Source of the DNA: Artemia franciscana
Lineage: Eukaryota > Arthropoda > Branchiopoda > Anostraca > Artemiidae
DNA: 64,000 bases
Direction: 5' to 3'
NCBI RefSeq assembly: GCF_032884065.1
Contig: NC_088873.1
Location: forward strand, 39,429,577-39,493,576
In this document: one piece after another, positions 2,507 through 60,062 of the stretch
How the letters are laid out: every line of letters starts with the position of its first letter
How positions within the stretch are numbered: position 1 is the first letter of the stretch
Made by a program: the position numbers and the translations under genes
Notes under the pieces: model-generated
Told to the model about the DNA's origin: nothing
Seen by the model: only the letters and a program-made list of their open reading frames with translations
Databases searched by the model: none

Positions 2507-2552
2507 GACATATATGTTCACGTAGAAATCTATTAATGTTTTTAAGTTTAAA

Positions 2553-3320
2553 ATGACTGATGAACTTACAATGGCAAAAGCCGATGAAGATGCTCAAAGA
2601 GTCTATGCCAAAAAACTTGCTGCTGATAGAGAAAGTCAGAAAAGAAAGCGTGCCGAGGAATCAAAAGAACAGCAAGGAAACAGGCTTGAGGCTGATAGAG
2701 AAAGAAAGAACAGAAAGCGTGCCGAGGAATCAAAAGAACAGCAAGGAAACAGGCTTGAGGCTGATAGAGAAAGAAAGAACAGAAAGCGTGCCGAGGAACT
2801 ACCAGAGCAACGCGAAAGCAGACTTGCTGCTAAAAGAGAAAGTGAAAAAAGAAGGAGTGCCGAGGAATCACAAGAACAGCAAGAAATCAGGCTTGCTGCT
2901 GATAGAGAAAGTAAGAAAAGAAAGCGTGCCGAGGAATCACAAGAACAGCAAGAAATCAGGCTTGCTGCTGATAGAGAAAGTAAGAAAAGAAAGCGTGCCG
3001 AGGAATCAGAGCAACCTGAATGTTATCGCCTGGCATTCAGGTACAGCCCAGTCGATGATTATAGCTTGAGTAGACGTGTTCAAATCGGGACAATGTCTAA
3101 AATTTGTCCCTATTGCAAGGCCTTGAAATTCAATGGTGAAACAATGGGAATGTGTTGCGCCTCAGGAAAAGTTAAACTTCCTCTATTGGCTGCACCACCA
3201 GAGCCATTGAAGACTTTCCTTACTGGAACTACGTCAGAATCTAAGCGTTTTTTGTCAAAAATCCGAAAATCCAGATCAATTTATGTCTACTTTCAAAGTA
3301 AAAGGGCAAATTTATCATAG
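2553..3320 (+). pseudogene. Helitron RepHel N-terminus with 23-residue repeats and CxxC finger
   Basis: The first 255 codons start at ATG 2553. Residues about 30-150 are six copies of a 23-residue, 69-bp unit of the form ADRESKKRKRAEESQEQQ, highly charged and predicted to be helical or coiled. A Helitron-typical cysteine region follows (CPYCKALKFNGE, then GMCCASGKVKLP) and then the PEPLKTFLTG segment seen in arthropod Helitrons. The frame then leaves the family pattern near codon 240, where a short piece between SKIRK and the next conserved block is missing. The 69-bp repeats are nearly identical to one another, suggesting recent expansion. Confidence 0.8.

Positions 3321-10279: not shown

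Positions 10280-10347
<68 letters not shown>
10272..10347. repeat. (TA)n microsatellite between Helitron B and family R copy I
   Basis: About 75 bp of TA interrupted by one GATA. It sits at the Helitron 5' end. Confidence 0.93.
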
Positions 10348-10349
<2 letters not shown>

Positions 10350-10353
10350 AAGA

Positions 10354-18010: not shown

Positions 18011-18020
18011 AAGGTTTTAT

Positions 18021-21000: not shown

Positions 21001-21116
21001 CAAGCCAGAGGTCTCCAGTATATCAATCAATTCTATTATGGAACTCCATCCCTTCGGATGTCCCTCTTTTTCTTTCTGCAAAGGCATTATTTCGTCGGGT
21101 ATTTCCAATTCAATAA
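18021..21116 (+). CDS. LINE A ORF2: endonuclease and reverse transcriptase, intact
   Basis: An uninterrupted frame of 1031 codons. Residues about 70-310 are an APE-type endonuclease: the Asn in FCLNVRGIRDKW, the Glu in IGLTETWLSD, LFYKPPPFPT, GDFNCNML, and the terminal SDHFPIYL with its catalytic Asp/His. The RT follows from about residue 560: VPLHKKGDSS, NYRPISLLPVISKV, FLDFSKAFDMVDH (first catalytic Asp), GVPQGSVLGPLLF, LFADDSNFF (catalytic DD). The C-terminal part (LPPDIMVSLYY, YCCSVWGN, RAQNRAVKATFLL) is conserved in family B. The product nicks target DNA and reverse-transcribes element RNA. All key residues visible are present, so this copy may still be competent or very young. Confidence 0.92.
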   Translation: MSEINMGDFSFLMNSSILNSVIFDQPSSAGKQEAHIFDPLLESMVSSSCNYHTTIDYCDNIMPSLSSNSCFNVFCLNVRGIRDKWDTLKSYLWSDNSCPFDVIGLTETWLSDSDNFTAYDMHGYIAIHVPRMVTKCSGGISLFIKSSIEFCRRSDLESLFTSVVSNSRTVYSLVIDLKSQVACDTVCLFYKPPPFPTHLFCDLLDQLSGVGTFSKKRICVLGDFNCNMLNVGSNDECDHLFDVFSSSGLLPSIFFPSRVDPSRNSATLIDNIFTSLSPNLKFSSGLVFTDLSDHFPIYLSLSVPKTEITVDEKGKSSFRTFTDREISNLIHSLQSNDWSSVLEANDADCATRLFLCRMGTLLDKHFPLRKRPRNFTPKCPWMSRGLINATHMKASLFKAACKSKTQEDLLKYKHYKNVLTSSVRLAKKLYFSRRINECKGNLRKVWTVINEALSRKKLKQSSPSLYRKADGSVVDKKSLASAFNSYFTTLPSVLIPPLSRVSCFPMTEKSFFLSPCSTTEISIIISQLPSSCSVDSFGLSNNVLKKISQFVSHPISHITNLSLSSGIFPHLFKVATVVPLHKKGDSSLISNYRPISLLPVISKVVEKVVYRRLSSFVFSTNSTAGNPLITNHQYGFCPSFSTLHALSDATEFVRVNLDKGLCVLGLFLDFSKAFDMVDHNVLLSKLSLFGVHGVPLEWFRSYLSERSQYVLVNCTSSSTLPVLKGVPQGSVLGPLLFLIYINDLVDGLHPHVHPVLFADDSNFFIAAVDLPSATSMAQGLLDKIKDWCWSNGMALNSRKSAIVNFRTPYRMRDVQEPITLTFGNDIIPQATVVKFLGVYLDCFLSFKPHITHTRSLILRQSSMLHRINSFLPPDIMVSLYYAFIYPYLSYCCSVWGNNNKSLLCSLQRAQNRAVKATFLLPRLYPSSDLYNDTGIAPLDHIIGKSTLYFAHSAFLGTLPPPLQQFFSRTGSGRYFSSLRNSPRRFILPKRSSTASQRSPVYQSILLWNSIPSDVPLFLSAKALFRRVFPIQ

Positions 21117-21257
21117 TTTTTCTCTCTTTATTAATCCTTTCCTAATTTGTATGTCTATTCTCTTCTTTTAAAATCATTTTCAGCTATATGTTAATCTCCT
21201 TCTAAATCTTCTATCTGTTAAATATCCTATCTATTCAATGTCCTTGTCTTGTTCCAG

Positions 21258-21307
21258 TATTTTTTTTTTCTTGTTTTTTTTTTTGTTTTTTTTTTGTTTT
21301 TTTTTGT
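21258..21307. repeat. T-rich tract in LINE A 3' UTR
   Basis: T runs separated by C and G. In the truncated copy at 57007 the same site is a pure T run of about 50 bp. Confidence 0.85.
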
Positions 21308-21438
21308 ATATATTTTATAGTAGTGTTTTATTCTTGTTCTCTGTGGTCCATTACAAGCAAAGCTTCTTGGGCCTAGTAACCACTTTACTTTTGTAATAGT
21401 TTTTTCTTTTAGTATCAATAAATTGATTGATTGATTGA

Positions 21439-26109: not shown

Positions 26110-26372
<263 letters not shown>

Positions 26373-28274
26373 ATAGAATCTTAACGAAAATCACACCATC
26401 AGATTCAGCGTATCAGAGAACCCTACTGTAGAAGTTTCAAGATCCTATCTACAAAAATGTGGAATTTTATATTTTTTGCCAGAAGGCAGATCACGGATGC
26501 GTGTTTATTTGTTTGTTTGTTTTTTTTTGTTGTTTTTTTTCCCCAGGGGTGATCGTATCGACCCAGTTGTCCTAGAATGTTGCAAGAGGGCTCATTCTAA
26601 CGGAATGAAAAGTTCTACTTCCCTTTTTAAGTGACCGAAAAATTGGAGGGCACCTAGGCCCCCTCCCACGCTAATTATTTTCCCAAAGTCAACGGATCAA
26701 TTCTGAATTCAAAGTCAAAGTGAACGGATTCAAAGTCAAATTCTGAGATAGCCATTTTATTCAGCGTAATCGAAAAACCTTATAACTATGTCTTTGGGGA
26801 CGACTTACTCCCCCACAGTCCCCGTGAGATGGGTTACAAGTTCAAAACTTTGACCAGTGCTTACATATAGTAATGGTTATTGGGAAGTGTACAGGCGTTT
26901 TCAGGAGGGTTTTTTGGTTGGAGGCAGGGTTGAGAAGAGGGGAATATGCTGGGAGAACTTTCCATCGAGGAATTTGTCATGGGGGAAGAAGATTTCCATG
27001 AAGAGAGCGCAGGATTTACTAGCATTACTTAAAAAAAAATCAATGAAAAAATAAATATGAAAAAGCTTTTTTTCAGCTGGAAGTAAGCAGCAGCATTAAA
27101 ACTTAAAGCGAACAGAAATTATTATCCATATAAGAGGCTCACCTCCTCCTAATACCTCGCTCTTTACGCTAAAGTATTTTTAGTAATTTCAACTATTTAT
27201 TCTGCAGCTTTTGTGATTCAGGGGTCATTCTTAATGAATTGGGACAAAATTTAAGCTTTAGTGTAAAGAGTGAGGTACTGACGAGGGGGCGAACCCCCTC
27301 ATATATGTAATAAAAACATGAGAATACAAAAGTTCTTTACGTAAGCTAATTTATAAGTTACGTATATCTTTTGCTTATAAAAAGATTCGTAAAAATTAAA
27401 AGTTCTAGTTGCCTTTTTAATTAACCGAAAATCGGAGGGCAACTAGGCTTCCTCCCCCGCTCTTTTTTTCTCAAAATCATTCGAGCAAAGTTATGAGAAA
27501 GCCATATAGCCAAAAAAAATAAATATACAAATTTCGTTTTAATTATTCCTCTGCGGATAGCCAAAATCAAAACATGCATTGATTCAAAAACGTTCAGAAA
27601 TTAAATAAAAAAAAACAAGTTTTTTAAATGAAAGTAAGGAGCGACATTAAAACTTAAAACGAACAGAAATTACTCCGTATATGAAAGGGGCTTTTCCTTC
27701 TCAACGCCCCGCTCTTTACGCTAAAGTATTTTACTGTTTTAAAATGTAGAGTTAAGAGAAAGAGTCAAACTTTAGCGTAAAGAGCGGGGCGTTGAGAAGG
27801 AAAAGCCCCTTTCATATACGGAGTAATTTCTGTTCGTTTTAATGTCGCTCCTTACTTTCATTTAATAAACTTGTTTTTTTTTATTTAACTACAGTTAGGG
27901 AAGGGGGCAGTAGTCAAACTCTTGTCTGCAATGATTTTTGTTTGTCTTCATCTTGAGTTGCATATTTAATTCAAGTTTTACTCGTTTTAAGATTTATTTA
28001 TTCATTTATATTAGTATCCGTTCTATGTTTGTTTGCTATAATTGCTTATTTAATTTCTGTTCGTTCTGGGTTTCATTTGTTTTTTAATAGTAATTTCTGG
28101 TCCTATCGAGTTGTAACTGTTACAGGAATTTCCTCTGCTGTTCTTAATTCTAATGTGACCTTTGCTTTTCTTTGCAAATTTCTTTTTCGGAAAATTAATT
28201 TCTGTTCGATTTGATTGCAAAAGTTTCAAGTTTTTCAAAATACCCCATTTTAAAATCAATTTTATTTTCGACAT

Positions 28275-35379: not shown

Positions 35380-36300
35380 ATCCCTAGATTTTGAATAACG
35401 CCCTTTTTTAGTTTTTTCCTTTTAAGAATAAAAAAAGAAGAGAAAATCGCTCAGCAAACATTTCCTTGGATTGGCACCCCAAGTAAATAGCCGCCAAGTT
35501 AAATGCTAAGCTTAACGAGTAGTTTTTACTTTACGATTCCTGACCCCCCACCCCCACCGGATTATGAAAAAGAAAAGTGTGTATCTTCATTAAAAAGTTG
35601 AAATCCCCCCCACATTTTCCTGGGTCGGTGACCCCTGGTAAATAGCTGCCCAATTAGTAAATGAGCAAAAATTGTTACACAGCATATATAGCATAGGCAC
35701 TTTAAACCGCCAAAAAATATAAGGGATGTGTTTGAAAAATAACAATTTTAACTAAGAGTTTTCACTTCAGGATTCCTAACCAAAAATGGAAAAAATCATA
35801 AATATCCCCCTCCCCCATCAGATTCTGAAAAACAATCATTGTTTATCTTCATTAAAAACTGAATATTCCCACACCATTTCCTTAAATTGGCACCCAGGAT
35901 AAATAGCTGTCCAATAAGCAAATACACTAGAAACATTGCACAGCGTATATAAGACAGGCACTTTAAAACAACACAAAAAAAATTAAAGAATGTGCTTGAA
36001 AGATACTAATATTTTTCATTTTAGGATTCCTATACAAAAATGGAAAAAAAAATAATAAATATCCCCTCCCTCCATCAGATTCTGAAAAACAAAATTTTTT
36101 TATCTTCATTAAAAACTGAATATTCCCACACCATTTTCTTAGATTGGCACCCCTGATAAATAGCTGTCCAATAAGCAAATACACAAGGAACATTGCACAG
36201 CCTATATAAGACAGACACCTTAACACAACCAAAAAAATTCAAAGAATGTGCTCGAAAAATGCTAATATTTTTCATTTCAGGATTCCTGAAGAAAAAATGA
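35380..36300. repeat. Tandem repeat, period about 235-257 bp, 3.5 units
   Basis: The string GGATTCCT(G/A) marks unit ends at about 35537, 35772, 36024 and 36281. Each unit contains ATCTTCATTAAAAA, a TTGGCACCC-like block, AAATAGCTG and a GCATATATA-like block. The third and fourth units are the most alike. Confidence 0.75.
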
Positions 36301-38556
36301 AAAGGTCAATCTGAATAATTTTTATAAATGCAACCATCACTTCTGTCATATTTGCAGTCAACCCCCCCCCACCCCCCTAAGTCCAGAGATCACCCTATGC
36401 TAAATAAAAACGTTTAGTGATATGTTATCTAAGACTGCACATAAATCAGAATCAATTACTGAACTCAATGTGAAAACAGTATTGAATTTTACGACATAAA
36501 AAAGGAAACGTCAGTGACATCAGTATTGCAAATTTATTATAATTCAAAAGAAAAAGGCTTCTGTTAACCCTTTCTGTTTCTCTAGAGTAAGTTATTTTTC
36601 GCAACACCATCAAAGCATCATTGCCCTTTTCTTCTCCTTTCTATTCTCCTATGAAATCTGAAAAGCCACATATTTCCTCTTCTTTTAGATATCTGAATTT
36701 TTAACAGCAAACTACATTTTCAAATAAAAAATCTGCTATTCCAAGATGATACCGTTGAAAACACAAATTTTCACTACTCCTTTCCTTTTTTAGATTAGAA
36801 AATTTATTTGGCAGAAACTAAAATGCTTCATGGACAATGTTAAAAATCCAAATATGATTTTAACTATTAAACCGAGAAAGTATAAACAAAAGAATTTCAA
36901 AATAATCTCAAAATAGCATTTAATGACGTTCATCTCACAAAAATTGCTAACAAATAAGATTATTTTATCAGCACATCTTTTTTTTTTACCGAAAAATATC
37001 TTTCAATTACCATTAAAAATATTAAAAAGCGACACATTTGCTTCTCCTTTGGATTTATATATACATTTTACCCCTCCCCCATACAATTATGTGAGTTGAC
37101 GCCACTGACGAACTGAAAAAGAATGAAAAAACTGTATTGCAAAAAATAAAGAATGAATAGAAATTCGGATCAAAATAATCCATTCAAATATTTAACTGAA
37201 AGAATACTTTTCCATCAATTGCGTTGCGGATGGAAAGGAGTAGCTCAATCACATATTTGGATTGCCATCATTGTTGCTGTTATTTTTAGATTTCCCTTCT
37301 TTTTATTATTCTTATTAGATTAAGGAAGTCTTGAGCTATGTACCAGCAACATACGCATTTTCTCTCAACTTAACCAGTCTAAATTCCCATTTTCCAGGTA
37401 TATTTTTTATTTTGTCATGTTCGGCACAAGACCTTGAAATAAACCTGAAAGCTTACTCACAGTTCTTAGCTTGACGGATGTTTCATACAGATTAATAAAT
37501 TTCAAGGTATTTAATAAATACTTTCAACAAAGGAATTCAGCAAAAAACGTCTTTTTAATCCTTGACGACATACTTGCATCCACTGGGACTCCTCCTTCCC
37601 TCCTTTCCCCTAAATCCTTCTGGAGTATCTACAGAAGATTAAAAAACGTAGATATAAAGCTTATTTGATTTCGTACTTTAACACCCCTACCAAAAACAAT
37701 TCTTTAACCCAACATTTACGCACCTATGTGTTATACGTTGCATTTTCGTGCATCACCGAGCACTTTCGTATATCTGATGCATCCGACACCCAGCCATGAT
37801 TAAATTGAGTCAACATCAAAATTTTGATTTTTAGCTAACCAGAGCAACAGGATTGAATTTATTGTTATGTCAAGGAAGGTAGTCTGTACTGTAATATATA
37901 AAGGTGCTCGGTCTTATTTCTCAATGCTATCTGGAAGTAAAAACAGCGTTTGTCGCGTTTAAACAGAAAATCAAAATTATTTTAAGTGATCCCGGAGCAA
38001 TAGGTATCGATACACTTTTTTTCCCAGTTATGAGCGGTCTTCCCTACATCCTGCGGATGCAAATGTGACTATTTGCTAAAAACTGAAAAAAAAAATCCTC
38101 AATAAAGTGAACCGAAACAAGCCTATACATAAAAGTACCAACATAGCATTTACTAATTCACTAAAGCTAATAGTCTTATTTAAACGTACACTTGTTGTTA
38201 CTCTGTCAGGCCCAGCACAACAGTACAAAATTTCAAAATTTTCTTAAAAAAATAAATATCCCACTGAACGTATGTCTTTTCTGTCACTTCGTAAACTCCT
38301 CACAAATACCTTTTCATTCCAACCAAGATGAGATGTGGCCACTAATATGCAAAATTGCAATCAGCAGATAAAGCCTCATTCATAATCCGGAATCAAGTGC
38401 AAAAGCTTATTTCCCCCAAAAGTGAAACCGAACAATTTCATGCATAACTACATGAACGTAGCATTAATCAGTACAATATAGACAATAACCCTATCATTAA
38501 TATGAACCAATACAAATAAGCCCTTTATCATATAACTCTCATTCCAGTGACTTTCA
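36301..38556. other. Region 3' of the amidase gene, no clear element
   Basis: AT-rich sequence without recognisable coding or mobile sequence. Short frames (37471) have no family. No strong polyadenylation signal for the amidase gene was identified just below 38557. Confidence 0.45.
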
Positions 38557-40999: not shown

Positions 41000-41350
41000 A
41001 AAATATCATATACTACTACTACTACTGACAACTCACTACCGAACCAAACCGCCTGAGGCCAACACAGCTACACAAACTACTCCTCCATCCCAATTTATTT
41101 AAAGCCTTCCTCTTTATACCTCCCCAGGAATTTCCCATCTCCCTTAAATCAATCCTTGCAACATTTTCCCGTCCCATTCAGGACTGACTAACGGTTGGAG
41201 CTGTGACATGGTTTGGGGTCTCCGCTCTGTCATACGTTCATACATCCGTCCCCATCCCCGACAGGGAAATTCTGCTTGCGTGGTCTCATAGTGGCATCAG
41301 GATGGACCATTCATGAGTTTTCCTAACCAAAACTGTAACTGCTAACAGTG
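41000..41350 (-). mobile_element. RTE-like LINE, 3' end fragment with TAG tail
   Basis: On the minus strand, a frame from about 41190 down to 41038 reads INDIVIDUAL blocks DLREMGNSWGGIKRKALNKL and GWRSSLCSCVGLRRFGS, then VVSC and a stop. This is the characteristic C-terminus of an RTE-like LINE common in invertebrates. It is followed by a (TAG)n tail (41013-41030 on the plus strand as TACTACTAC). Truncated at 41350, where the satellite begins. Confidence 0.7.
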
Positions 41351-41354
41351 CTAA

Positions 41355-44300
41355 GTCGCTAAGACTAAGTCGCTAAGATCGGAAATAAGTGAAGGTGAAA
41401 AAGTGGCCCATGGCCCATGGTATTTTTTCAAGGTCAAAAAAGTTTGAAAGATTAGGAAGATAAGTCTATGCACCAAGTAAGAATATGCTGCAGGATGACC
41501 TTGAGGAGTAGCGGCTCTAGAGGAAATTATAGCCTAGTAAATAAAATTATTTCTAAGAAAACTAAGTCGCTAAGATCGGAAATAAGTGAAGGTGAAAAAG
41601 TGGCCCATGGCCCATGGTATTTTTCCACGGTCAAAAAAGTTTGAAAGATTAGGAAGATAAGTCTATGCACCAAGTAAGTATATGCTGCAGGATGACCTTG
41701 AGGAGTAGCGGCTCTAGAGGAAATTTTAGCCTAGTAAAGTTACGATAAATTTGAAAATTATTTCTAAGAAAACTAAGTCGCTAAGATCGGAAATAAGTGA
41801 AGGTGAAAAAGTGGCCCATGGCCCATGGTATTTTTTCAAGGTCAAAAAAGTTTGAAAGATTAGGAAGATAAGTCTATGCACCAAGTAAGTATATGCTGCA
41901 GGATGACCTTGAGGAGTAGCGGCTCTAGAGGAAATTATAGCCTAGTAAAGTTACGATAAATTTGAAAATTATTTCTAAGAAAACTAAGTCGCTAAGATCG
42001 GAAATAAGTGAAGGTGAAAAAGTGGCCCATGGCCCATGGTATTTTTTCAAGGTCAACAAAGTTTGAAAGATTAGGAAGATAAGTCTATGCACCAAGTAAG
42101 TATATGCTGCAGGGTGACCTTGAGGAGTAGCGGCTCTAGAGGAAATTATAGCCTAGTAAAGTTATGATAACTTTGAAAATTATTTCTAAGAAGACTAAGT
42201 CGCTAAGATCGGAAATAAGTGAAGGTGAAAAAGTGGCCCATGGCCCATGGTATTTTTTCACGGTCAAAAAAGTTTGAAAGATTAGGAAGATAAGTCTTTG
42301 CACCAAGTAAGTATATGCTGCAGGATGACCTTGAGGAGTAGCGGCTCTAGAGGAAATTGTAGCCTAGTAAAGTTACGATAAGTATGAAAATTATTTTTAA
42401 GAAGACTAAGTCGCTAAGATCGGAAATAAGTGAAGGTGAAAAAGTGGCCCATGGCCCATGGTATGTTTTCACGGTCAAAAAAGTTTGAAAGATTAGGAAG
42501 ATAAGTCTATGCACCAAGTAAGTATATGCTGCAGGATGACCTTGAGGAGTAGCCGCTCTAGAGGAAATTATAGCCTAATAAAGTTACGATAAGTTTGAAA
42601 ATTATTTCTAAGAAGACTAAGTCGCTAAGATCGGAAATAAGTGAAGGTGAAAAAGTGACCCATGGCCCATGGTATTTTTTCACGATCAAAAAAGTTTGAA
42701 AGATTAGGAAGATAAGTCTATGCACCAAGTAAGTATATGCTGCAGGATGACCTTGAGGAGTAGCGGCTCTAGAGGAAATTGTAGCCTAGTAAAGTTACGA
42801 TAAGTATGAAAATTATTTTTAAGAAAACTAAGTCGCTAAGATCGGAAATAAGTGAAGGTGAAAAAGTGGCCCATGGCCCATGGTATTTTTTCAAGGTCAA
42901 AAAAGTTTGAAAGATTAGGAAGATAAGTCTATGCACCAAGTAAGTATATGCTGCAGGATGACCTTGAGGAGTAGCGGCTCTAGAGGAAATTATAGCCTAG
43001 TAAAGTTACAATAAGTTTGAAAATTATTTCTAAGAAGACTAAGTCGCTAAGATCGGAAATAAGTGAAGGTGAAAAAGTGGCCCATGGCCCATGGTATTTT
43101 TTCACGATCAAAAAAGGTTGAAAGATTAGGAAGATAAGTCTATGCACCAAGTAAGTATATGCTGCAGGATGACCTTGAGGAGTAGCGGCTCTAGAGGAAA
43201 TTGTAGCCTAGTAAAGTTACGATAAGTATGAAAATTATTTTTAAGAAAACTAAGTCGCTAAGATCGGAAATAAGTGAAGGTGAAAAGGTGGCCCATGGCC
43301 CATGGTATTTTTTCAAGGTCAAAAAAGTTTGAAAGATTAGGAAGATAAGTCTATGCACCAAGTAAGTATATGCTGCAGGATAACCTTGAGGAGTAGCGGC
43401 TCTAGAGGAAATTATAGCCTAGTAAAGTTACGATAAATTTGAAAATTATTTCTAAGAAAACTAAGTCGCTAAGATCGGAAATAAGTGAAGGTGAAAAAGT
43501 GGCCCATGGCCCATGGTATTTTTCCACGGTCAAAAAAGTTTGAAAGATTAGGAAGATAAGTCTATGAACCAAGTAAGTATATGCTGCAGGATGACCTTGA
43601 GGAGTAGCGGCTCTAGAGGAAATTATAGCCTAGTAAAGTTACGATAAATTTGAAAATTATTTCTAAGAAAACTAAGTCGCTAAGATCGGAAATAAGTGAA
43701 GGTGAAAAAGTGGCCCATGGCCCATGGTAATTTTTCAAGGTCAAAAAAGTTTGAAAGATTAGGAAGATAAGTCTATGCACCAAGTAAGTATATGCTGCAG
43801 GATGACCTTGAGGAGTAGCGGCTCGAGAGGAAATTATAGCCTAGTAAAGTTACGATAAATTTGAAAATTATTTCTAAGAAAACTAAGTCGCTAAGATCGG
43901 AAATAAGTGACGGTGAAAAAGTGGCCCATGGCCCATGGTATTTTTTCAAGGTCAAAAAAGTTTGAAAGATTAGGAAGATAAGTCTATGCACCAAGTAAGT
44001 ATATGCTGCAGGATGACCTTGAGGAGTAGCGGCTCTAGAGGAAATTATAGCCTAGTAAAGTTACGATAAGTTTGAAAATTATTTCTAAGAAGACTAAGTC
44101 GCTAAGATCGGAAATAAGTGAAGGTGAAAAAGTGGCCCATGGCCCATGGTATGTTTTCACGGTCAAAAAAGTTTGAAAGATTAGGAAGATAAGTCTATGC
44201 ACCAAGTAAGTATATGCTGCAGGATGACCTTGAGGAGTAGCCGCTCTAGAGGAAATTATAGCCTAGTAAAGTTACGACAAATTTGAAAATTATTTCTAAG

Positions 44301-47300
44301 AAAACTAAGTCGCTAAGATCGGAAATAAGTGAAGGTGAAAAAGTGACCCATGGCCCATGGTATTTTTTCATAGTTAAAAAGTTTGGAAGAATAGGAAGAT
44401 AAATCTATGCACCAAGTAAGTATATGCTGCAGGATGATCTTGAGGAGTAGCGGCTCTAGAGGAAATTATAGCCTAGTAAAGTTACGATAAATTTGAAAAT
44501 TATTTCGAAGAAAACTAAGCCGCTAAGATCGGAAATAAGTGAAGGTGAAAAAGTGGCCCATGGCCCATGGTATTTTTCCACGGTAAAAAAAGTTTGAAAG
44601 ATTAGGAAGATAAGTCTATGCACCAAGTAAGTATATGCTGCAGGATGACCTTGAGGAGTAGCGGCTCTAGAGGAAATTATAGCCTAGTAAAGTTACGATA
44701 AATTTGAAAATTATTTCTAAGAAAACTAAGTCGCTAAGATCGGAAATAAGTGAAGGTGAAAAAGTGGCCCATGGCCCATGGTATTTTTTCAAGGTCAAAA
44801 AAGTTTGAAAGATTAGGAAGATAAGTCTATGCACCAAGTAAGTATATGCTGCAGGATGACCTTGAGGAGTAGGGGCTCTAGAGGAAATTAGGAAATTATA
44901 GCCTAGTAAAGTTACGATAAGTTTGAAAATTATTTCTAAGAAGACTAAGTCGCTAAGATCGGAAATAAGTGAAGGTGAAAAAGTGGCCCATGGCCCATGG
45001 TATTTTTTCACGATCAAAAAAGTTTGAAAGATTAGGAAGATAAGTCTATGCACCAAGTAAGTATATGCTGCAGGATGACCTTGAGGAGTAGCGGCTCTAG
45101 AGGAAATTGTAGCCTAGTAAAGTTACGATAAGTATGAAAATTATTTTTAAGAAAACTAAGTCGCTAAGATCGGAAATAAGTGAAGGTGAAAAAGTGGCCC
45201 ATGGCCCATGGTATTTTTTCAAGGTCAAAAAAGTTTGAAAGATTAGGAAGATAAGTCTATGCACCAAGTAAGTATATGCTGCAGGATAACCTTGAGGAGT
45301 AGCGGCTCTAGAGGAAATTATAGCCTAGTAAAGTTACGATAAATTTGAAAATTATTTCTAAGAAAACTAAGTCGCTAAGATCGGAAATAAGTGAAGGTGA
45401 AAAAGTGGCCCATGGCCCATGGTATTTTTCCACGGTCAAAAAAGTTTGAAAGATTAGGAAGATAAGTCTATGAACCAAGTAAGTATATGCTGCAGGATGA
45501 CCTTGAGGAGTAGCGGCTCTAGAGGAAATTATAGCCTAGTAAAGTTACGATAAATTTGAAAATTATTTCTAAGAAAACTAAGTCGCTAAGATCGGAAATA
45601 AGTGAAGGTGAAAAAGTGGCCCATGGCCCATGGTAATTTTTCAAGGTCAAAAAATTTGAAAGATTAGGAAGATAAGTCTATGCACCAAGTAAGTATATGC
45701 TGCAGGATGACCTTGAGGAGTAGCGGCTCGAGAGGAAATTATAGCCTAGTAAAGTTACGATAAATTTGAAAATTATTTCTAAGAAAACTAAGTCGCTAAG
45801 ATCGGAAATAAGTGAAGGTGAAAAAGTGGCCCATGGCCCATGGTATTTTTTCAAGGTCAAAAAAGTTTGAAAGATTAGGAAGATAAGTCTATGCACCAAG
45901 TAAGTATATGCTGCAGGATGACCTTGAGGAGTAGCGGCTCTAGAGGAAATTATAGCCTAGTAAAGTTACGATAAGTTTGAAAATTATTTCTAAGAAGACT
46001 AAGTCGCTAAGATCGGAAATAAGTGAAGGTGAAAAAGTGGCCCATGGCCCATGGTATTTTTTCACGGTCAAAAAAGTTTGAAAGATTAGGAAGATAAGTC
46101 TATGCACCAAGTAAGTATATGCTGCAGAATGACCTTGAGGAGTAGCGGCTCTAGAGGAAATTGTAGCCTAGTAAAGTTACGATAAGTATGAAAATTATTT
46201 TAAGAAGACCAAGTCGCTAAGATCGGAAATAAGTGAAGGTGAAAAAGTGGCCCATGGCCCATGGTATGTTTTCACGGTCAAAAAAGTTTGAAAGATTATG
46301 AAGATAAGTCTATGCACCAAGTAAGTATATGCTGCACGATGACCTTGAGGAGTAGCCGCTCTAGAGGAAATTATAGCCTAGTAAAGTTACGATAAATTTG
46401 AAAATTATTTCTAAGAAAACTAAGTCGCTAAGATCGGAAATAAGTGAAGGTGAAAAAGTGACCCATGGCCCATGGTATTTTTTCATAGTTAAAAAAGTTT
46501 GGAAGAATAGGAAGATAAGTCTATGCACCAAGTAAGTATATGCTGCAGGATGATCTTGAGGAGTAGCGGCTCTAGAGGAAATTATAGCCTAGTAAAGTTA
46601 CGATAAATTTGAAAATTATTTCGAAGAAAACTAAGTCGCTAAGATCGGAAATAAGTGAAGGTGAAAAAGTGGCCCATGGCCCATGGTATTTTTCCACGGT
46701 CAAAAAAGTTTGAAAGATTAGGAAGATAAGTCTATGCACCAAGTAAGTATATGCTGCAGGATGACCTTGAGGAGTAGCGGCTCTAGAGGAAATTATAGCC
46801 TAGTAAAGTTACGATAAATTTGAAAATTATTTCTAAGAAAACTAAGTCGCTAAGATCGGAAATAAGTGAAGGTGAAAAAGTGGCCCATGGCCCATGGTAT
46901 TTTTTCAAGGTCAAAAAAGTTTGAAAGATTAGGAAGATAAGTCTATGCACCAAGTAAGTATATGCTGCAGGATGACCTTGAGGAGTAGGGACTCTAGAGG
47001 AAATTATAGCCTAGTAAAGTTACGATAAGTTTGAAAATTATTTCTAAGAAGACTAAGTCGCTAAGATCGGAAATAAGTGAAGGTGAAAAAGTGGCCCATG
47101 GCCCATGGTATTTTTTCACGATCAAAAAAGTTTGAAAGATTAGGAAGATAAGTCTATGCACCAAGTAAGTATATGCTGCAGGATGACCTTGAGGAGTAGC
47201 GGCTCTAGAGGAAATTGTAGCCTAGTAAAGTTACGATAAGTATGAAAATTATTTTTAAGAAAACTAAGTCGCTAGGATCGGAAATAAGTGAAGGTGAAAA

Positions 47301-50300
47301 AGTGGCCCATGGCCCATGGTATTTTTTCAAGGTCAAAAAAGTTTGAAAGATTAGGAAGATAAGTCTATGCACCAAGTAAGTATATGCTGCAGGATAACCT
47401 TGAGGAGTAGCGGCTCTAGAGGAAATTATAGCCTAGTAAAGTTACGATAAATTTGAAAATTATTTCTAAGAAAACTAAGTCGCTAAGATCGGAAATAAGT
47501 GAAGGTGAAAAAGTGGCCCATGGCCCATGGTATTTTTTCAAGGTCAAAAAAGTTTGAAAGATTAGGAAGATAAGTCTATGCACCAAGTAAGAATATGCAG
47601 CAGGATGACCTTGAGGAGTAGCGGCTCTAGAGGAAATTATAGCCTAGTAAAGTTACAATAAATTTGAAAATTATTTCTAAGAAAACTAAGTCGCTAAGAT
47701 CGGAAATAAGTGAAGGTGAAAAAGTGGCCCATGGCCCATGGTATTTTTCCACGGTCAAAAAAGTTTGAAAGATTAGGAAGATAAGTCTATGTACCAAGTA
47801 AGTATATGCTGCAGGATGACCTTGAGGAGTAGCGGCTCTAGAGGAAATTATAGCCTAGTAAAGTTACGATAAATTTGAAAATTATTTCTAAGAAAACTAA
47901 GTCGCTAAGATCGGAAATAAGTGAAGGTGAAAAAGTGGCCCATGGCCCATGGTATTTTTTCAAGGTCAAAAAAGTTTGAAAGATTAGGAAGATAAGTCTA
48001 TGCACCAAGTAAGTATATGCTGCAGGATGACCTTGAGGAGTAGCGGCTCTAGAGGAAATTATAGCCTAGTAAAGTTACGATAAATTTGAAAATTATTTCT
48101 AAGAAAACTAAGTCGCTAAGATCGGAAATAAGTGAAGGTGAAAAAGTGGCCCATGGCCCATGGTATTTTTTCTAGGTCAATAAAGTTTGAAAGATTAGGA
48201 AGATAAGTCTATGCACCAAGTAAGTATATGCTGCAGGATGACCTTGAGGAGTAGCGGCTCTAGAGAAAATTATAGCCTAGTAAAGTTATGATAACTTTGA
48301 AAATTATTTCTAAGAAGACTAAGTCGCTAAGATCGGAAATAAGTGAAGGTGAAAAAGTGGCCCATGGCCCATGGTATTTTTTCACGGTCAAAAAAGTTTG
48401 AAAGATTAGGAAGATAAGTCTATGCACCAAGTAAGTATATGCTGCAGGATGACCTTGAGGAGTAGCGGCTCTAGAGGAAATTGTAGCCTAGTAAAGTTAC
48501 GATAAGTATGAAAATTATTTTAAGAAGACTAAGTCGCTAAGATCGGAAATAAGTGAAGGTGAAAAAGTGGCCCATGGCCCATGGTATTTTTCACGGTCAA
48601 AAAAGTTTGAAAGATTAGGAAGATAAGCCTATGCACCAAGTAAGTATATGCTGCAGGATGACCTTGAGGAGTAGCGGCTCTAGAGGAAATTATAGCCTAG
48701 TAAAGTTACGATAAGTTTGAAAATTATTTCTAAGAAGACTAAGTCGCTAAGATCGGAAATAAGTGAAGGTGAAAAAGTGGCCCATGGCCCATGGTATTTT
48801 TTCAAGGTCAAAAAAGTTTGAAAGATTAGGAAGATAAGTCTATGCACCAAGTAAGTATATGCTGCAGGATGACCTTGAGGAGTAGCGGCTCTAGAGGAAA
48901 TTATAGCCTAGTAAAGTTACGATAAATTTGAAAATTATTTCTAAGAAAACTAAGTCGCTAAGATCGGAAATAAGTGAAGGTGAAAAAGTGGCCCATGGCC
49001 CATGGTATTTTTTCAAGGTCAAAAAAGTTTGAAAGATTAGGAAGATAAGTCTATGCACCAAGTAAGTATATGCTGCAGGATGACCTTGAGGAGTAGCGGC
49101 TCTAGAGGAAATTATAGCCTAGTAAAGTTACGATAAATTTGAAAATTATTTCTAAGAAACTAAGTCGCTAAGATCGGAAATAAGTGAAGGTGAAAAAGTG
49201 GCCCATGGCCCATGGTATTTTTTCACGGTCAAAAAAGTTTGAAAGATTAGGAAGATAAGTCTATGCACCAAGTAAGTATATGCTGCAGGAATGACCTTGA
49301 GGAGTAGCGGCTCTAGAGGAAATTATAGCCTAGTAAAGTTACGATAAGTATGAAAATTATTTCTAAGAAGACTAAGTCGCTAAGATCGGAAATAAGTGAA
49401 GGTGAAAAAGTGGCCCATGGCCCATGGTATTTTTCACGGTCAAAAAAGTTTGAAAGATTAGGAAGATAAGTCTATGCACCAAGTAAGTATATGCTGCAGG
49501 ATGACCTTGAGGAGTAGCGGCTCTAGAGGAAATTATAGCCTAGTAAAGTTACGATAAGTATGAAAATTATTTCTAAGAAAACTAAGTCGCTAAGATCGGA
49601 AATAAGTGAAGGTGAAAAAGTGGCCCATGGCCCATGGTATTTTTTCAAGGTCAAAAAAGTTTGAAAGATTAGGAAGATAAGTCTATGCACCAAGTAAGTA
49701 TATGCTGCAGGATGACCTTGAGGAGTAGCGGCTCTAGAGGAAATTATAGCCTAGTAAAGTTACGATAAGTTTGAAAATTATTTCTAAGAAGACTAAGTCG
49801 CTAAGATCGGAAATAAGTGAAGGTGAAAAAGTGGCCCATGGCCCATGGTATTTTTCCACGGTCAAAAAAGTTTGAAAGATTAGGAAGATAAGTCTATGCA
49901 CCAAGTAAGTATATGCTGCAGGATGACCTTGAGGAGTAGCGGCTCTAGAGGAAATTATAGCCTAGTAAAGTTACGATAAATTTGAAAATTATTTCTAAGA
50001 AAACTAAGTCGCTAAGATCGGAAATAAGTGAAGGTGAAAAAGTGGCCCATGGCCCATGGTATTTTTTCAAGGTCAAAAAAGTTTGAAAGATTAGGAAGAT
50101 AAGTCTATGCACCAAGTAAGTATATGCTGCAGGATGACCTTGAGGAGTAGCGGCTCTAGAGGAAATTATAGCCTAGTAAAGTTACGATAAGTATTGAAAA
50201 TTATTTCTAAGAAGACTAAGTCGCTAAGATCGGAAATAAGTGAAGGTGAAAAAGTGGCCCATGGCCCATGGTATTTTTCACGGTCAAAAAAGTTTGAAAG

Positions 50301-51297
50301 ATTAGGAAGATAAGTCTATGCACCAAGTAAGTATATGCTGCAGGATGACCTTGAGGAGTAGCGGCTCTAGAGGAAATTATAGCCTAGTAAAGTTACGATA
50401 AGTTTGAAAATTATTTCTAAGAAGACTAAGTCGCTAAGATCGGAAATAAGTGAAGGTGAAAAAGTGGCCCATGGCCCATGGTATTTTTCCACGGTCAAAA
50501 AAGTTTGAAAGATTAGGAAGATAAGTCTATGCACCAAGTAAGTATATGCTGCAGGATGACCTTGAGGAGTAGCGGCTCTAGAGGAAATTATAGCCTAGTA
50601 AAGTTACGATAAGTTTGAAAATTATTTCTAAGAAGACTAAGTCGCTAAGATCGGAAATAAGTGAAGGTGAAAAAGTGGCCCATGGCCCATGGTATTTTTC
50701 ACGGTCAAAAAAGTTTGAAAGATTAGGAAGATAAGCCTATGCACCAAGTAAGTATATGCTGCAGGATGACCTTGAGGAGTAGCGGCTCTAGAGGAAATTA
50801 TAGCCTAGTAAAGTTACGATAAGTTTGAAAATTATTTCTAAGAAGACTAAGTCGCTAAGATCGGAAATAAGTGAAGGTGAAAAAGTGGCCCATGGCCCAT
50901 GGTATTTTTCACGGTCAAAAAAGTTTGAAAGATTAGGAAGATAAGCCTATGCACCAAGTAAGTATATGCTGCAGGATGACCTTGAGGAGTAGCGGCTCTA
51001 GAGGAAATTATAGCCTAGTAAAGTTACGATAAGTTTGAAAATTATTTCTAAGAAGACTAAGTCGCTAAGATCGGAAATAAGTGAAGGTGAAAAAGTGGCC
51101 ATGGCCCATGTATTTTTCCGCGGTCAAAAAAGTTTGAAAGATTAGGAAGATAAGTCTATGCACCAAGTAAGTATATGCTGCAGGATGACCTTGAGGAGTA
51201 GCGGCTCTAGAGGAAATTATAGCCTAGTAAAGTTACGATAGGTTTGAAAATTATAGTTAAGAAGACTAAGTCGCAAAGATTGGAAATAAGTGAAGGT
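41355..51297 (+). repeat. Satellite/minisatellite array, 211-bp monomer, about 47 copies
   Basis: Head-to-tail units start, for example, with CTAAGTCGCTAAGATCGG at 41365, 41562, 41773, 41984, 42195 and 42406. The period is 211 bp, with the first interval 197 bp. Monomers are very similar (a few differences each) and carry a doubled GCCCATGGCCCATGG, a CTGCAG and a TCTAGA site. Translated in the plus direction, a monomer retains pieces of an LINE RT (KKTKSLRSEISEGEKV and, further on, KKV-KIRKISL-TK), so it derives from the RTE-like LINE whose remnants flank the array. Open frames on the minus strand (MVHRLIFLIFQTF...) are antisense artefacts. It lies in the last intron of the amidase gene. Confidence 0.95.
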
Positions 51298-52100
51298 GAA
51301 AGTGATATTGGGTGACGAGAAGATTGATGCTGTGGACAGCTTCACCAACCTAGGTAGAATTATTAGTAAAAACGGTGGGTGCAGTGAAGATGTTGAAAGT
51401 AGAATAGCTAAGGCCCAGGGTGTTTTTTTCTAAGTTAAAAGTTTGAAAGTTAAAAAAATATATATTCAAGAGAAATTGCTTACGGATTATTTTGGGTACC
51501 CGACTGACGGACCGTATATCCAAAATATCATATGATAGAGAAAAAAAAGAAGAAAACCAATCTAAGGGAAGTAAAGAAGGATTTAAAGTGTACATTAAGG
51601 AAATGTCAGACAAAGGATAAAATTGCAAGATCTTGAAAATGCTACTGTCTTGGGATGCTGAGAAATTGTGAGAAAATTATCAGTCTTGACTTGTACCAGC
51701 TAAAAATAGGAACAGGGCCACTTTTAGTGATAAAGGGAGCGTTTAAGAGAGATATATAGAACATTTTGAGAATGTCTTAAAAAGAAACAAAGTTACAGGA
51801 AATGATATAGAAAATTTTTGGCAATTTGGAGGCAAAGGAAGATTTATTTTGGGAAAAAGAATTAGAGATAGTTCTAAAAAGTATTAAAAAATAACTAGAT
51901 CCCAGACACTAATAGCGTGGTAAGTAAATTTTTAAATATACTGGTTGTAAAATTAGAGATAAATTACTACGGGATAAAAGGACTTAAACAATTAGAACTT
52001 CATGGAAGAAGGTAAAGATTCATGGAAAGCTTTGAAGAGGCTGGAGTTGAGGAGCTTAGCTGTATTGGCTTCTGACAGAAGTTATTAGGAGTAGCAGCAT
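51250..52100 (+). mobile_element. RTE-like LINE fragments, rearranged
   Basis: 51250-51490 is the RT C-terminal side: KKTKSQRLEISEGE, then GDEKIDAVDSFTNLGRIISK, then GGCSEDVESRIAKAQGVFF. 51700-51990 is the region N-terminal to the RT: KGAFKRDI, VKEDLF-like and ELEIVLKSIKK, then KIRDKLL-like. A weak C-terminal match lies near 52010-52095 (AGCTGTATTGGCTTC). The order is scrambled relative to an intact element and every part carries stops or frame changes. The first fragment merges without a gap into the last satellite monomer. Confidence 0.65.
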
Positions 52101-52204
52101 ATACTTTAGCCAATCAAAACTAAGGTCACATCATCCGAATCTTTACATTTATTTGATCATGCTTATAAAACCAGTTAAATTCAAACACAAGGCTATAGAA
52201 TTGC

Positions 52205-54539: not shown

Positions 54540-56208
54540 ATGACGGGAAAAAAGCCCCTAAGGCTACCACCCGAGAAGGATACTCCCACTGAAACCCTTA
54601 GCCGGTCGCCATTCCAACCAACCTATAAAACTCTTCCTAGAACCCCCCCCCCCCCAACTACGCGATCCAAAACTGTTAGCCACTTGTCAGGAATTCAGGC
54701 CTTAGCCGAAACTAACTCTAATGAAAGAGGTGAGACGCCTGGCAAAAAGAGGAAAAAGGATGAAACTCGTTCACCAACGATAGTGCAACCCCTCTCTTCA
54801 AGTGTCCCAGAAACAAGTGCTAACGATCACCCCAATTATTATACTGTCTCAATCAAGAAAACCAATGGCCAACCCTTTTCGAAAGATCGAATAATGCAAA
54901 TTAGGAAAGCTGTCTTTCTGATCACCAAGGTGAATTTTGAACTTGTTTTCAAGCAGGACGAGTCTATTGATATTTACTTTACGTCTTCTCAGGCGGCAGA
55001 CCATGTCCTGTCAAAATCCAAAGAAATAACTCTTGATGGCTCAAAAATTTTAACCACAAAAAAAGATGTGGAAAAGTTACACAAGTATGTGCTGTATGGT
55101 GTTGATACCAGTGTAAAAGTGGAGGAAATACAGACTGAACTAATAGATTCTTATTGTCCTGACTGCCACATCAAAAGTGTAAGTCGTCTGATCAATCCTT
55201 CAACTGCTATAAGGCTAAGTTTAAACAAAGAAGGTTTTCTTCACCCTAGCCGTTCAATCCTCATTTCCTGCAAAGTTGAGCTAAGTGGAGAAATATTCTT
55301 GTACGGTATGTCTCTTTTTTTACAAGATGTATAAGCCTAAGCCCCTACAATGCTCCACTTGTCTGGCCCACGGCCACAGCAAAAAACACTGCAAACAGTC
55401 CCATCCGTCTTGCCTTAAGTGTGGGAAAACAGGCCACGCAATTAGTGAATGCCCTGAGTCAGACCCTTTCTGCAGAAATTGTAACCGTAAGGGACACACA
55501 GCCCTCCAAAAACAATCTTGCCCAGCTCACCAAAAGCGAGTTGTAATCCTTAGAACATCTGATAAAATGAACCTACCCTACTCAGTTGTAGCTGCAAGAA
55601 TCCCTTGGCAACCCACACCCCATCGACCCAGTAGAAGCCAAGCAACAGTTGCTGTAGCAGATGCAAAGACAGTATCATTTCCAAAAGAGGCAAATAATGT
55701 TCATACTCAAGGTTCTAGTCATTCCCCCCATCCCTTACCTGAGTTTACTTCAACATCCTGCCCTCCAAAAGATTCATCTAAAAATAGCCAAGAATGGCAA
55801 AGGCTTGCAACTTATTTCACAGTCAGTCACTTAATTGAGGTTAGTAATGAAGCTGAGGAAACCAAAAATATTCTCAAGAAGAAAGCTATCACTAAACTCC
55901 TAGGTGATGACATATTAGAAACAGCTATGGCTCAATTATCCTCCATGAAAAAGGACATAGATTCCACATCAAAGCTAGTTAGGCCTGTAGACTCAACTGC
56001 AAATCAAATCAAAGGCTCTGAAATTGCCACAACCCCCAAGACGGTAGTCGATGCCACTGCCCTAGTCAAAGGCAAGAAATCTAAGAAAAAAACGGCAAAC
56101 TTTCCATCCCAGTCCAAAATTACCACCAATGATATTTCGTCGGCTGAAGAAGATTTCCAATATTCTAATCAAGGAGATGATGAAACTCAGACCACAATGG
56201 ATGTTTAA
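54540..56208 (+). pseudogene. LINE B ORF1, CCHC zinc-knuckle protein, one frameshift
   Basis: The start is MTGKKPLRLPPEKD. A basic/proline-rich N-terminus is followed by a region resembling LINE ORF1 RNA-recognition folds (YYTVSIKKTNGQPF, TKKDVEKLHKYVLYGVD). An extra T in the T8 run near 55315 shifts the frame; the protein continues as MYKPKPLQCSTCLAHGHS. Three CCHC knuckles follow (CSTCLAHGHSKKHC, CLKCGKTGHAISEC, CRNCNRKGHTALQKQSC). A long Lys-rich tail ends at TAA 56206-56208. ORF1 binds element RNA. The stop is directly followed by the ATG of ORF2. Confidence 0.82.
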
Positions 56209-56386
56209 ATGTACACCGTACAAGATTTTACGTTTCTCACGAATTTATCACTGTGTAATAATGTTGTTTTTAACTATTACGATGACCAAAATAATTTGCC
56301 CACCAGCCCCTTAGCTACCCCGATAGCCCTTTAAACCAAATTAACTGTGAATATGTCGATACTTTTGATTTTGTGAAAAATGTTAA

Positions 56387-57004
56387 ACCACACCCGTTCC
56401 TTAATCCTCCGCCAGTCTTCAAGTTGCACCGGATTAATTCATTTCTTCCTCCTGATATTATGGTTTCTCTTTATCATGCTTTTATTCATCCTTACCTTTC
56501 TTATTGCTGCTCTGTCTGGGGCAATACTAATAAATCTCTTCTCTGCTCACTTCAAAGAGCCCAAAATAGGGCAGTGAAGGCTACTTTTCTTCTCCCTCGG
56601 CTTTACCCTTCCTCTGATCTTTATAATGATACTGGAATAGCTCCGCTGGATCATATTATAGGTAAAAGTACTCTTTATTTAGCGCATTCTGCTTTTCTAG
56701 GTACTCTTCCACCGACCCTGCAGCAGTTTTTCTCAAGGACAGGCTCAGGTAGGTACTTTTCTTCTTTGCGTAATTCTTCTCGACGATTTATTTTACCAAA
56801 ACGATCCTCTACAGCAGCTCAGAGGTCTCCTGTATATCAATCAATTCTATTATGGAACTCCATCCCTTTGGATGTCCCTCTTTTTCTTTCTGCAAAGGCA
56901 TTATTTCGTCGGGTCTTTCCAGTTAAATAATTTTTGTCTCTCTTTTAATTCTATCCCAATTTGTATGTCACTTCTCTTCTTTTAAAATCTTGTCTTGTTC
57001 CAGT

Positions 57005-57059
<55 letters not shown>

Positions 57060-57181
57060 TATATATTTTATAAGTGTTTTATTTTTGTTCTCTGTGGCCC
57101 ATTACAAGCATAGCTTCTTGGGCCTATTAATTGATTTCTTTTGTAATAGTTTTCTTTAGTATTAATAAATTGATTGATTGA
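56387..57181 (+). mobile_element. LINE family A, 5'-truncated copy inserted in LINE B
   Basis: Matches 20573-21438 of LINE A from CACACCCGTTCCTTAATCC through the last about 180 codons of ORF2, the 3' UTR and the (TTGA)n tail. The copy has a one-base loss near its start, then an open frame of 185 codons to 56930. A pure T run (57007-57057) replaces the interrupted T tract of the other copy. TTAA occurs on both sides (56383-56386 and 57182-57185) as a possible short target duplication. Confidence 0.88.
57007..57057. repeat. Poly(T) tract within LINE A copy
   Basis: A pure run of about 50 T in the 3' UTR of the truncated LINE A. Confidence 0.95.
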
Positions 57182-58964
57182 TTAAGCTAATGGAAGAGAC
57201 CAAACTTAATATAATTTGCTTTAATATCAGAAGTATGCGGGACAAGTGGGCTAATTTTAAAGACTTAATTTTAATTAATGGTTACTGCCTTTTCGACGTA
57301 ATCGGAATAACGGAAACGTGGCTTTCAGAAATTGATGATAAGAATGAATTTTCCCTCCCTGGTTTTCAAGCTATTCATATTAAAAGAAAATTAACCAAGT
57401 CCTCTGGCGGCATTTCTCTTTACATCCGGTCAAGTCTGAAATTCACCAGGCTATTAGACTGTGAATCCTTATTCTCGCAACCTATAAATAATAGATGCAT
57501 TTATTCAATAATCGTAGACATAAGTGTTGACGAGAATTCTTTTATTTTTTCATTATTTTATAAGCCCCCCTCATTTCCGACCCCTTTCTTTTGTAACCTG
57601 TTTGATGATTTTTCTAGTTTTATTAATTTACCACAGAAGAAGGCAATAGTTATTGGGGACTTCAATTGTAATTTACTAAATGTTAGCAATAATAATGATT
57701 GTGACAGCTTTTTTGAAACATTCACCTCAAGTGGTCTTCTTCCCACAATCCTTTTTCCTACTAGAGTTGATCCTGTGAGGTCTACAGCTACTGTAATTGA
57801 CAACATTTTTGTATCCACTTCCCTGGGAAACCACCTGTCCTCCAAAATAATATTTTCTGACCTGTCAGATCACTTTCCAATCTATCTCTCGCTACCCTCC
57901 CTACCAACTACTCAGCCCTCTAGAACTAAAACCCCTACGTATAATAGAATATATAATACTGTGAATATGAACAGGTTCACGGATCGTTTGAAATCCTTCG
58001 ACTGGTCCAAGGTTTTGGATACTCAGGATGTTAATTCAGCCACAAATGGTTTTACACAGGAATTGAGTGATCTTATCAGTTCAACCTTTCCAGTTCGTAA
58101 ATCAAACCGAAAAACTACCCATATACGCCCCTGGATGTCTAATAGCCTGATAATCTCTTCATACCGAAAAAATGACCTATATAAGTTATCTTGCAAAACC
58201 AGTAACGTTATTGACCTGACTAATTATAAAAAATACAAAAATTTATATACCAAACTTGTCCGGGAAGCAAAAAAAAATTATTATTATTCAAAAATCTCTC
58301 ATTGCAAAGGGAACTTGCAAAAAATTTGGTCAACAATAAATGAAATTCTTTCAAAAAAAAGAAATTCAAGATCTGTACCTCTTAACCTTAAGGACATCAG
58401 TGGTAGATTAATTGACCCAAGTTCAGTACCGGATGCTTTTAATAATTATTTCACTAATATTCCAAATGCTAACTCCTGTTCCTTCTCCCAGTCAGTACAA
58501 CCTAGAGAGAATCCTGGATCCATGTTTTTCTCTCCAACTGATCGTAAAGAGGTGCTTCAAGTTATCAAATGTCTCTCTAATAGTAGTACACCTGACTGCT
58601 TTGGCATAAGTAATAAGCTTCTTAGGACCGTATCTTCCTATGTTTGTGAACCCATTGTGCACATAGCAAACCTGTCTATGACCAATGGAGTCTTTCCAGA
58701 AATATTTAAATCAGCAATTGTTGTCCCGATTCATAAAAAAGGCGATCCGTCTGAGATAAGTAATTATCGTCCAATCTCACTTCTCCCAGTTATATCTAAA
58801 GTGCTCGAGATAATTATATTCCGACGTCTTTCTCCCTTTTTATTTGGGATTCATTCTTCAGATTCGTTGATTTCTCCTCATCAATATGGCTTCCGTTCCA
58901 AATTTTCAACTGCTCATGCACTAATAGACGCCACACAGTTTATACGTTCCCAAAAAATACTGTA

Positions 58965-60062
58965 TTGGGCTTAATTCTGGACTTTTCTAAGGCCTTTGAT
59001 ATGGTTGATCACAGTGTTCTATTAAGTAAACTCAACAACTTAGGGATTCGTGGAGTTTCTTTCTCATGGTTTGGCTCTTATCTCTCTGGTAGAGTACAGA
59101 GTGTGAGTCTGGGCGGGTTGACTTCAAATCCCCTACCTGTCCGAAGGGGCGTCCCACAAGGCTCTGTTCTTGGTCCAATACTTTTTCTCCTTTATATTAA
59201 TGATTTGGTTACGGACCTGGGTCCATCAGTGCACCCAGTACTTTTTGCTGACGATAGCAACTTTTTCATCACCGGTCCTAATTTACCATCCGTCGTCGCC
59301 TCTACTCAAACCCTTCTGAATAGAGTACAGGAGTGGTGTCTAGTTAACTGCATGACCATTAACATCAAGAAAAGTCAGGTTGTATTATTTCGAACCCCTT
59401 ACAAGAAAAATGAAGCTCAGCAAGCACTTGGCCTAAAATATTCTACCAATCTCCTCCCACAGGTCGAAGTTGCCAAGTTTCTTGGTGTCCACATAGACTC
59501 CTCCCTATCATTTGCAACACACGTGTCCTACATCAGAGCCATAATTTTGCGACAGGTAAGTATGATTAATCGTGCGAATTATTTTCTTCCTCCCGATATC
59601 CTTGTCACCCTTTATTACTCTTGTATTTACCCATATATCTCATACTGTGGATCTGTTTGGGGCAAAACTTTTCCTTCAGTTACCAATAAATTGAAATCTG
59701 CCCAAAACCGTGCCATCAAAGCAGTTTTTCGGCTGCCCCGACTATATCCCACCCAGGACTTGTACTCCGATTTTGGTATTACCCCTTTTGAACAAATCAT
59801 CAAAAAATTAAATCTATACATTGCATACTCCGCTTACCATAAAAATCTTCCTCCTCAATTATTATCTTATTTTAATATTAATAATTCTGAAGGCCTCTGT
59901 CTCCGTTCATCCAACCGTTCCTTAATTGTCCCCAAATGTGTCTCTAGTTCCGCCCAGCGATCCCCCATTTATAAATCTATACTCCAATGGAATATAATAC
60001 CCTCCAGTGTCGAGCTATCCACAAGTTTTCGCACGCTGTATAACAATGTACTAAAATTTTGA
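58965..60062 (+). pseudogene. LINE B ORF2, second part (RT catalytic core and C-terminus)
   Basis: After a one-base frame change at an A run near 58955 the RT continues: GLILDFSKAFDMVDHSVLL (first catalytic Asp), GVPQGSVLGPILFLLYIND, LFADDSNFFITG (catalytic DD), AKFLGVHIDSSLSF, then the C-terminal region LPPDILVTLYYSC, YCGSVWG and RAQNRAIKAVFRLPRLYP-like, ending at TGA 60062. All catalytic residues are present; this part alone is undamaged. Confidence 0.85.

Follow-up and report, generated by a model that had tools for sequence, protein, structure and literature searches.

A homogeneous array of 211-bp units in Artemia franciscana, made mostly from a piece of a LINE

Satellite sequences evolve so rapidly that in many cases their source can no longer be recognized. 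In this study, we analyzed a stretch of 64,000 nucleotides from contig NC_088873.1 of Artemia franciscana (the window), in which a tandem array of 211-bp units runs directly into a LINE-like sequence, and asked whether the units derive from an element of this kind and by which steps a piece of it could have become an array. Our analyses suggested that the feature is a local satellite array with homogeneous units, most of whose sequence comes from a LINE of this species. A probability of roughly 0.8 is given to the reading that the unit originated from a LINE and was amplified by exchange, the parentage of the neighboring LINE copy being left aside. The positions of the features are collected in Table 1.

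The array consists of many near-identical head-to-tail units, the arrangement by which satellites are recognized. TRF reported a period of 211, 46.3 copies and 96% matches at 41543-51301, and a search with a 14-base anchor (at most 2 errors) found 48 sites between 41385 and 51286. The last anchor belongs to the flanking LINE-like copy, so that 47 units remain, and the 211-bp array of about 47 copies proposed in the earlier note was thereby upheld from two sides. One anchor spacing is 197 bp and the other 46 are 209-219 bp. The truncated first unit accounts for 197 bp and opens with a 14-bp duplication; one unit of 219 bp carries an 8-bp duplication, and the remaining units are 209-212 bp long. 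With the truncated unit left out, the 46 others showed a mean pairwise difference of 6.1 substitutions, or 2.9%.

Table 1. Positions in the window of the array, the adjoining LINE pieces and the short direct repeat.
Feature	Position	Strand	Basis or remark
Array, 47 units of 211 bp, first truncated	41346..51246	+ (orientation of source LINE)	TRF, anchor search
One whole unit (unit 1)	41543..41753	+	Columns 1-62 and 63-154 LINE; 155-198 outside profile match; 199-211 LINE
LINE stretch in array register, carrying the segment that units lack (51302-51411)	51238..51449	+	Alignment, profile
10-bp direct repeat, first copy in flanking LINE	51289..51298	+	10-mer search
10-bp direct repeat, second copy in flanking LINE, 94 bp further on	51383..51392	+	10-mer search
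LINE piece resuming beyond a gap of ~115 LINE positions	51460..51523	+	Match to LINE copies
LINE piece belonging further upstream in the element (some 1150 to 690 bases ahead of where the 51238 piece starts), out of order	51550..51968	+	14 of 25 copies match all or part
Probable LINE 3' end	51974..52123	+	Pairwise alignment to 3 copies, no significance test
3' end of same LINE family, opposite orientation, left of array	41008..41184	-	21 of 25 copies match all or part

At the right end of the array, the flank resembles the unit on two sides of an additional segment. Positions 51247-51301 matched the unit consensus at 89% over 55 bp (E=2e-15), and positions 51412-51449 at 77.5% over 40 columns, a match that with E=0.27 is not significant alone. 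The 110 bp at 51302-51411 have no counterpart in the unit. A segment absent from every monomer had been described before at 51305-51411, with a length of 107 bp; its presence in the flank only was confirmed, and its limits were revised.

The dispersed copies of the element carry the case for a LINE origin. Region 50800-51500 was searched against the assembly of the same genome (1,270,528,402 bases in 6468 contigs), which gave 4473 first-look candidates, 39 of which were scored, and at least 50 matches. Among the matches listed, the 39 main ones showed 79-85% identity and started at about window position 51234-51242, and 10 of the 11 minor ones landed in array units, several of them adjoining a main match. 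This was a first hint that the right half of the unit is also LINE. The window's own locus is absent from the match list, so the list is compatible with further arrays elsewhere. When the unit consensus was compared with the first 8 LINE loci, both sides of the gap were matched in the right order at seven, and the left side only at one. We then aligned 25 distinct LINE copies, picked by their likeness to the flank carrying the segment, and built a profile from 22 of them. This profile covers 167 of the 211 bp of the unit in two collinear blocks. Unit columns 199-211 plus 1-62 correspond to profile positions of about 117-191 (E about 1e-13), and columns 63-154 to 293-393 (E about 2e-14), both values being for the consensus against a small target of ~2.3 kb; the posterior is low over the final ~25 bp of the right block. 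Between the two blocks, the match jumps over about 101-102 LINE positions.

The unit was also cut into four pieces, each of which was shuffled 200 times (mononucleotide). The two core pieces reached median scores of 78 and 72, where their shuffles did not exceed 35 and 30. The two outer pieces stayed at shuffle level, with medians of 12 and 19, the shuffles having means of 13.3 and 15.3. The first impression from the alignment, that the entire unit is LINE, was dropped because the end pieces score at shuffle level. A total of 44 bp (columns 155-198) fall outside the profile match, and the pieces holding them are those at shuffle level; they may be decayed LINE, or may stem from DNA next to a LINE truncated at its 5' end. 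Chance could in principle account for the resemblance of the unit to the LINE, as the E-value of 0.27 for the right side against the flank alone would allow, but both sides are significant and collinear against dispersed copies, and the 22-copy profile refutes this explanation, whose probability we regard as negligible. Since both sides of the unit match dispersed copies, in order and in two collinear profile blocks, the LINE origin holds, and the homology to a dispersed element of its own genome places the array among the satellites derived from transposable elements. The two-sided nucleotide alignment that the earlier note had named as its check was therefore obtained.

The element itself encodes a reverse transcriptase, as is required of a LINE. 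LINE copy L023 contains a 674-aa open frame with an RVT_1 match (E=1.5e-30); its upstream 207-aa piece, in which an endonuclease was looked for, was without a Pfam match at 1e-3. In the unit, the LINE part begins about 24 residues past the YADD motif of the reverse transcriptase frame. Copy L016 reads GLKINVKKTKSLRLGISEDEQV there and, beyond the segment absent from units, KKVWKNRKISLQTK, near the strings first noticed in the monomers. A derivation from the C-terminal side of the reverse transcriptase thus stands for the 167 bp, which lie after the catalytic motif, and was not detected for the other 44 bp. In comparison with the dispersed LINE (RTE-like in the wording of the earlier note), with which it shares these 167 of 211 bp, the unit does not form an open frame of the element, is missing the ~101-102 LINE positions and includes the 44 bp unrecognized as LINE.

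The anatomy of the missing segment points to how it was probably lost. Judged by the dispersed copies and the profile, ~100 bp are gone from within the source LINE piece, in agreement with the internal loss suggested previously. The 10-mer AGTGAAGATG, with one mismatch allowed, occupies both places around the missing stretch in 22 of the 25 LINE copies, at a spacing of 96 bp in 21 of these and of 95 bp in the other; the remaining three copies carry one 10-mer only. In six of the 25, a third match with one mismatch lies 18 bp ahead of the second. Of this direct repeat, the unit retains a single copy. By way of background, one match was found in 26,500 bases of LINE surroundings. In addition, GGCCCAT stands twice in tandem beside the deletion junction of the unit. 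A loss of ~100 bp between short direct repeats, with one repeat kept, makes slippage or repeat-mediated repair the likely origin of the deletion, with some further change at the junction; this mechanism is inferred from the anatomy. An alternative would be that a LINE subfamily already without the segment had spread by retrotransposition and that one of its copies turned tandem later. Internal gaps do occur in copies of this family, two of which (L009 and L012) are gapped elsewhere in the element, but none of the 25 aligned copies, sampled with a query that itself held the segment, has the deletion of the unit, and we consider such a history improbable.

Traces of how the array grew are found in the order of its units. 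Units 8-12 reappear as units 17-21, a run of five that arose in 1 of 1000 shuffles of unit order. In the distance table, units 14-18 resemble units 24-28 (0-2 differences) and units 1-4 resemble units 30-33 (0-4 differences); neither likeness passed when runs were tested strictly, with the 8-bp insertion of unit 16 counted. A higher-order period over the whole array was not significant, 385 of 1000 permutations being as low. The units are therefore homogenized in the manner of a satellite, with a 2.9% mean difference, a repeated block of five units and no whole-array period. As read from the sequence, this pattern fits unequal exchange with block copying. Units 23 (46190) and 34 (48510) have a common cluster of four substitutions near the unit start, found in no other full unit.

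The same variants bear on whether the array, or its copy number, might have been produced by the assembly. Forty-seven units at about 97% identity are difficult to assemble, and the available text of PMC11492255 presents the assembly as a mosaic of several technologies. Against this, the window is without any N, shared variants distinguish the units and follow a mosaic order, and the context at both array ends is unique, which makes an artefact very unlikely.

Which LINE copy gave rise to the array is a separate question, for which the right flank is the obvious candidate. The array register passes from unit 46 unbroken into the LINE at about 51238. In a tree, unit and flank together split from the 25 LINE copies with SH-aLRT 94.8 and bootstrap 97 on the left part, and 92.8 and 96 on both parts; when the first seven columns, possibly part of unit 46, were removed, the support was 73/80 and 84.3/76. 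The left part has states common to unit and flank that are rare among the 25 copies, for example at sites 50, 52 and 64 (in 1, 3 and 2 copies, respectively). A tree of the right part alone did not pair the two: with low support, the flank joined the main LINE group, and the unit came close to L012 and L011. The right part accordingly did not uphold the flank as a certain parent. Over 106 sites, the closest sequence to the unit among the 25 copies and the flank is the flank (91 sites, 0.858), followed by L012 (89 sites, 0.840) and L011 (0.830).

The units nearest to the flank gave a weak answer. The earlier note had asked whether the rightmost units are closest to the LINE, and units 42-46 are indeed richer in LINE states (0.768 v 0.685 at 17 sites, permutation p=0.0017, for a cut chosen post hoc and units that are not independent), but no gradient of LINE states along the array was detected (rho 0.17, p=0.26). 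The flank itself, described earlier as the undeleted relative of the units, does keep the segment missing from them, yet another ~115 LINE positions (about +217 to +332), which are partly present in the units, are missing from it. Nearly the same stretch is absent from copies L009 and L012, whose gaps stand at about LINE +213 to +217, close to the place of the gap in the right flank, and this coincidence reflects either a deletion-prone site or a shared lineage.

At odds just short of even, the flank is the founder of the array, that is, the surviving partner of a first duplication, with a later loss of its own. It is also possible, if somewhat less likely, that the flank is another LINE copy joined by recombination, the array having arisen elsewhere from a different LINE copy and met the flanking LINE through homologous recombination, for example of a circle of units. 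The absence from the flank of ~115 LINE positions that are partly in the units, the placement of the flank in the main LINE group and of the unit near L012 and L011 on the right part (low support), and the match of the unit to these two copies, close behind that to the flank, would all suit such a junction, whereas the left-part states common to unit and flank, rare among the 25 copies, speak for a closer tie between the two.

The position of the flank also constrains the order of events. Deletion followed by amplification, as first proposed, would leave no segment-bearing copy in register at the edge of the array, and by itself it fails to explain the one that is there; either duplication preceded the deletion or recombination with a second LINE took place. 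With duplication first, a LINE segment would have been duplicated in tandem, slippage or repeat-mediated repair would have removed the sequence between the direct repeats from one duplicate, and the shortened unit would have been multiplied to 47 copies by unequal exchange, partly via the copying of unit blocks. The order of duplication, deletion and expansion explains the in-register edge copy without a second LINE, and recombination with a second LINE also explains it. Tentatively, and at somewhat under even odds, the locus may preserve the birth of a satellite in place, with the founder holding the segment in register at the edge, a deletion between direct repeats and block amplification. 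If this is true, the order 'duplicate, delete, expand' would be readable from one sequence.

The surroundings of the array are rich in pieces of mobile elements. The right flank continues as LINE pieces to about 52123, and in the 161 bp between the left LINE piece and the array (41185-41345), no LINE match was better than E=2. The locus has the look of a graveyard of LINEs. Farther away in the window, a LINE-like piece at 412-1779 (-) has a 455-aa frame (RVT_1, E=7e-21), and a Helitron at 2526-7134 (+) has matches to Helitron_like_N (E=6e-58) and PIF1 helicase (E=3e-67) in neighboring frames; a 69-bp sequence is repeated 5.7 times within a frame of that region at 2616-3008. Transposase frames at 13202-14961 (-), which we take to be of piggyBac type, include a DDE_Tnp_1_7 match (E=3e-39) in 13202-14260. 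A further LINE at 18012-21116 (+) has an open 1034-aa frame with Exo_endo_phos and RVT_1 (E=4.5e-32), and a second LINE lies in pieces at 54540-60062 (+), including an RVT_1 piece; as 56389-57183 is 86% identical to 20574-21436 of the former, the tail of one LINE seems to be nested inside the other. Inverted repeats at 10341-11729 and 26354-27888 (80-86% identity) adjoin AT or TA runs, and a 257-bp tandem repeat is present in two to three copies at 35545-36303.

The array showed no sign of a coding or known RNA role. Rfam gave no match at gathering in the 64-kb window and none at E<=1 in 41300-42400, and tRNAs were not found in the window. The likeliest function of the array is none.

Satellites from retrotransposons have reportedly been described in plants, and one search of the open-licence literature found no paper that, by its title, deals with satellites of Artemia. 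The available part of PMC10702118, on SINE-derived satellites, states that satellites amplified from transposon segments are on record for LTR elements, LINEs, SINEs and DNA transposons, and the available part of the review PMC12628747 names untranslated regions as the source of LINE-derived satellites. As in the cases that these sections describe, a subsegment of a transposable element was here made tandem and homogenized. In contrast to the LINE satellites in that portion of PMC12628747, the source in Artemia is a reverse transcriptase-coding region with an internal deletion. The route from a transposable element piece to a satellite is thus already known, and the array is a clear example of it, not a new kind; a satellite drawn mostly from the coding part of a reverse transcriptase, with an internal deletion, is a modest extension of the known cases. 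What this one locus shows is the source element, the deletion that shortened it, the likely cause of the end points of that deletion and an in-register copy that holds the segment. The array can be used to illustrate, step by step, the way in which a fragment of transposon coding sequence turns into a satellite, and its most useful feature is that the source and the segment-bearing copy stand side by side.
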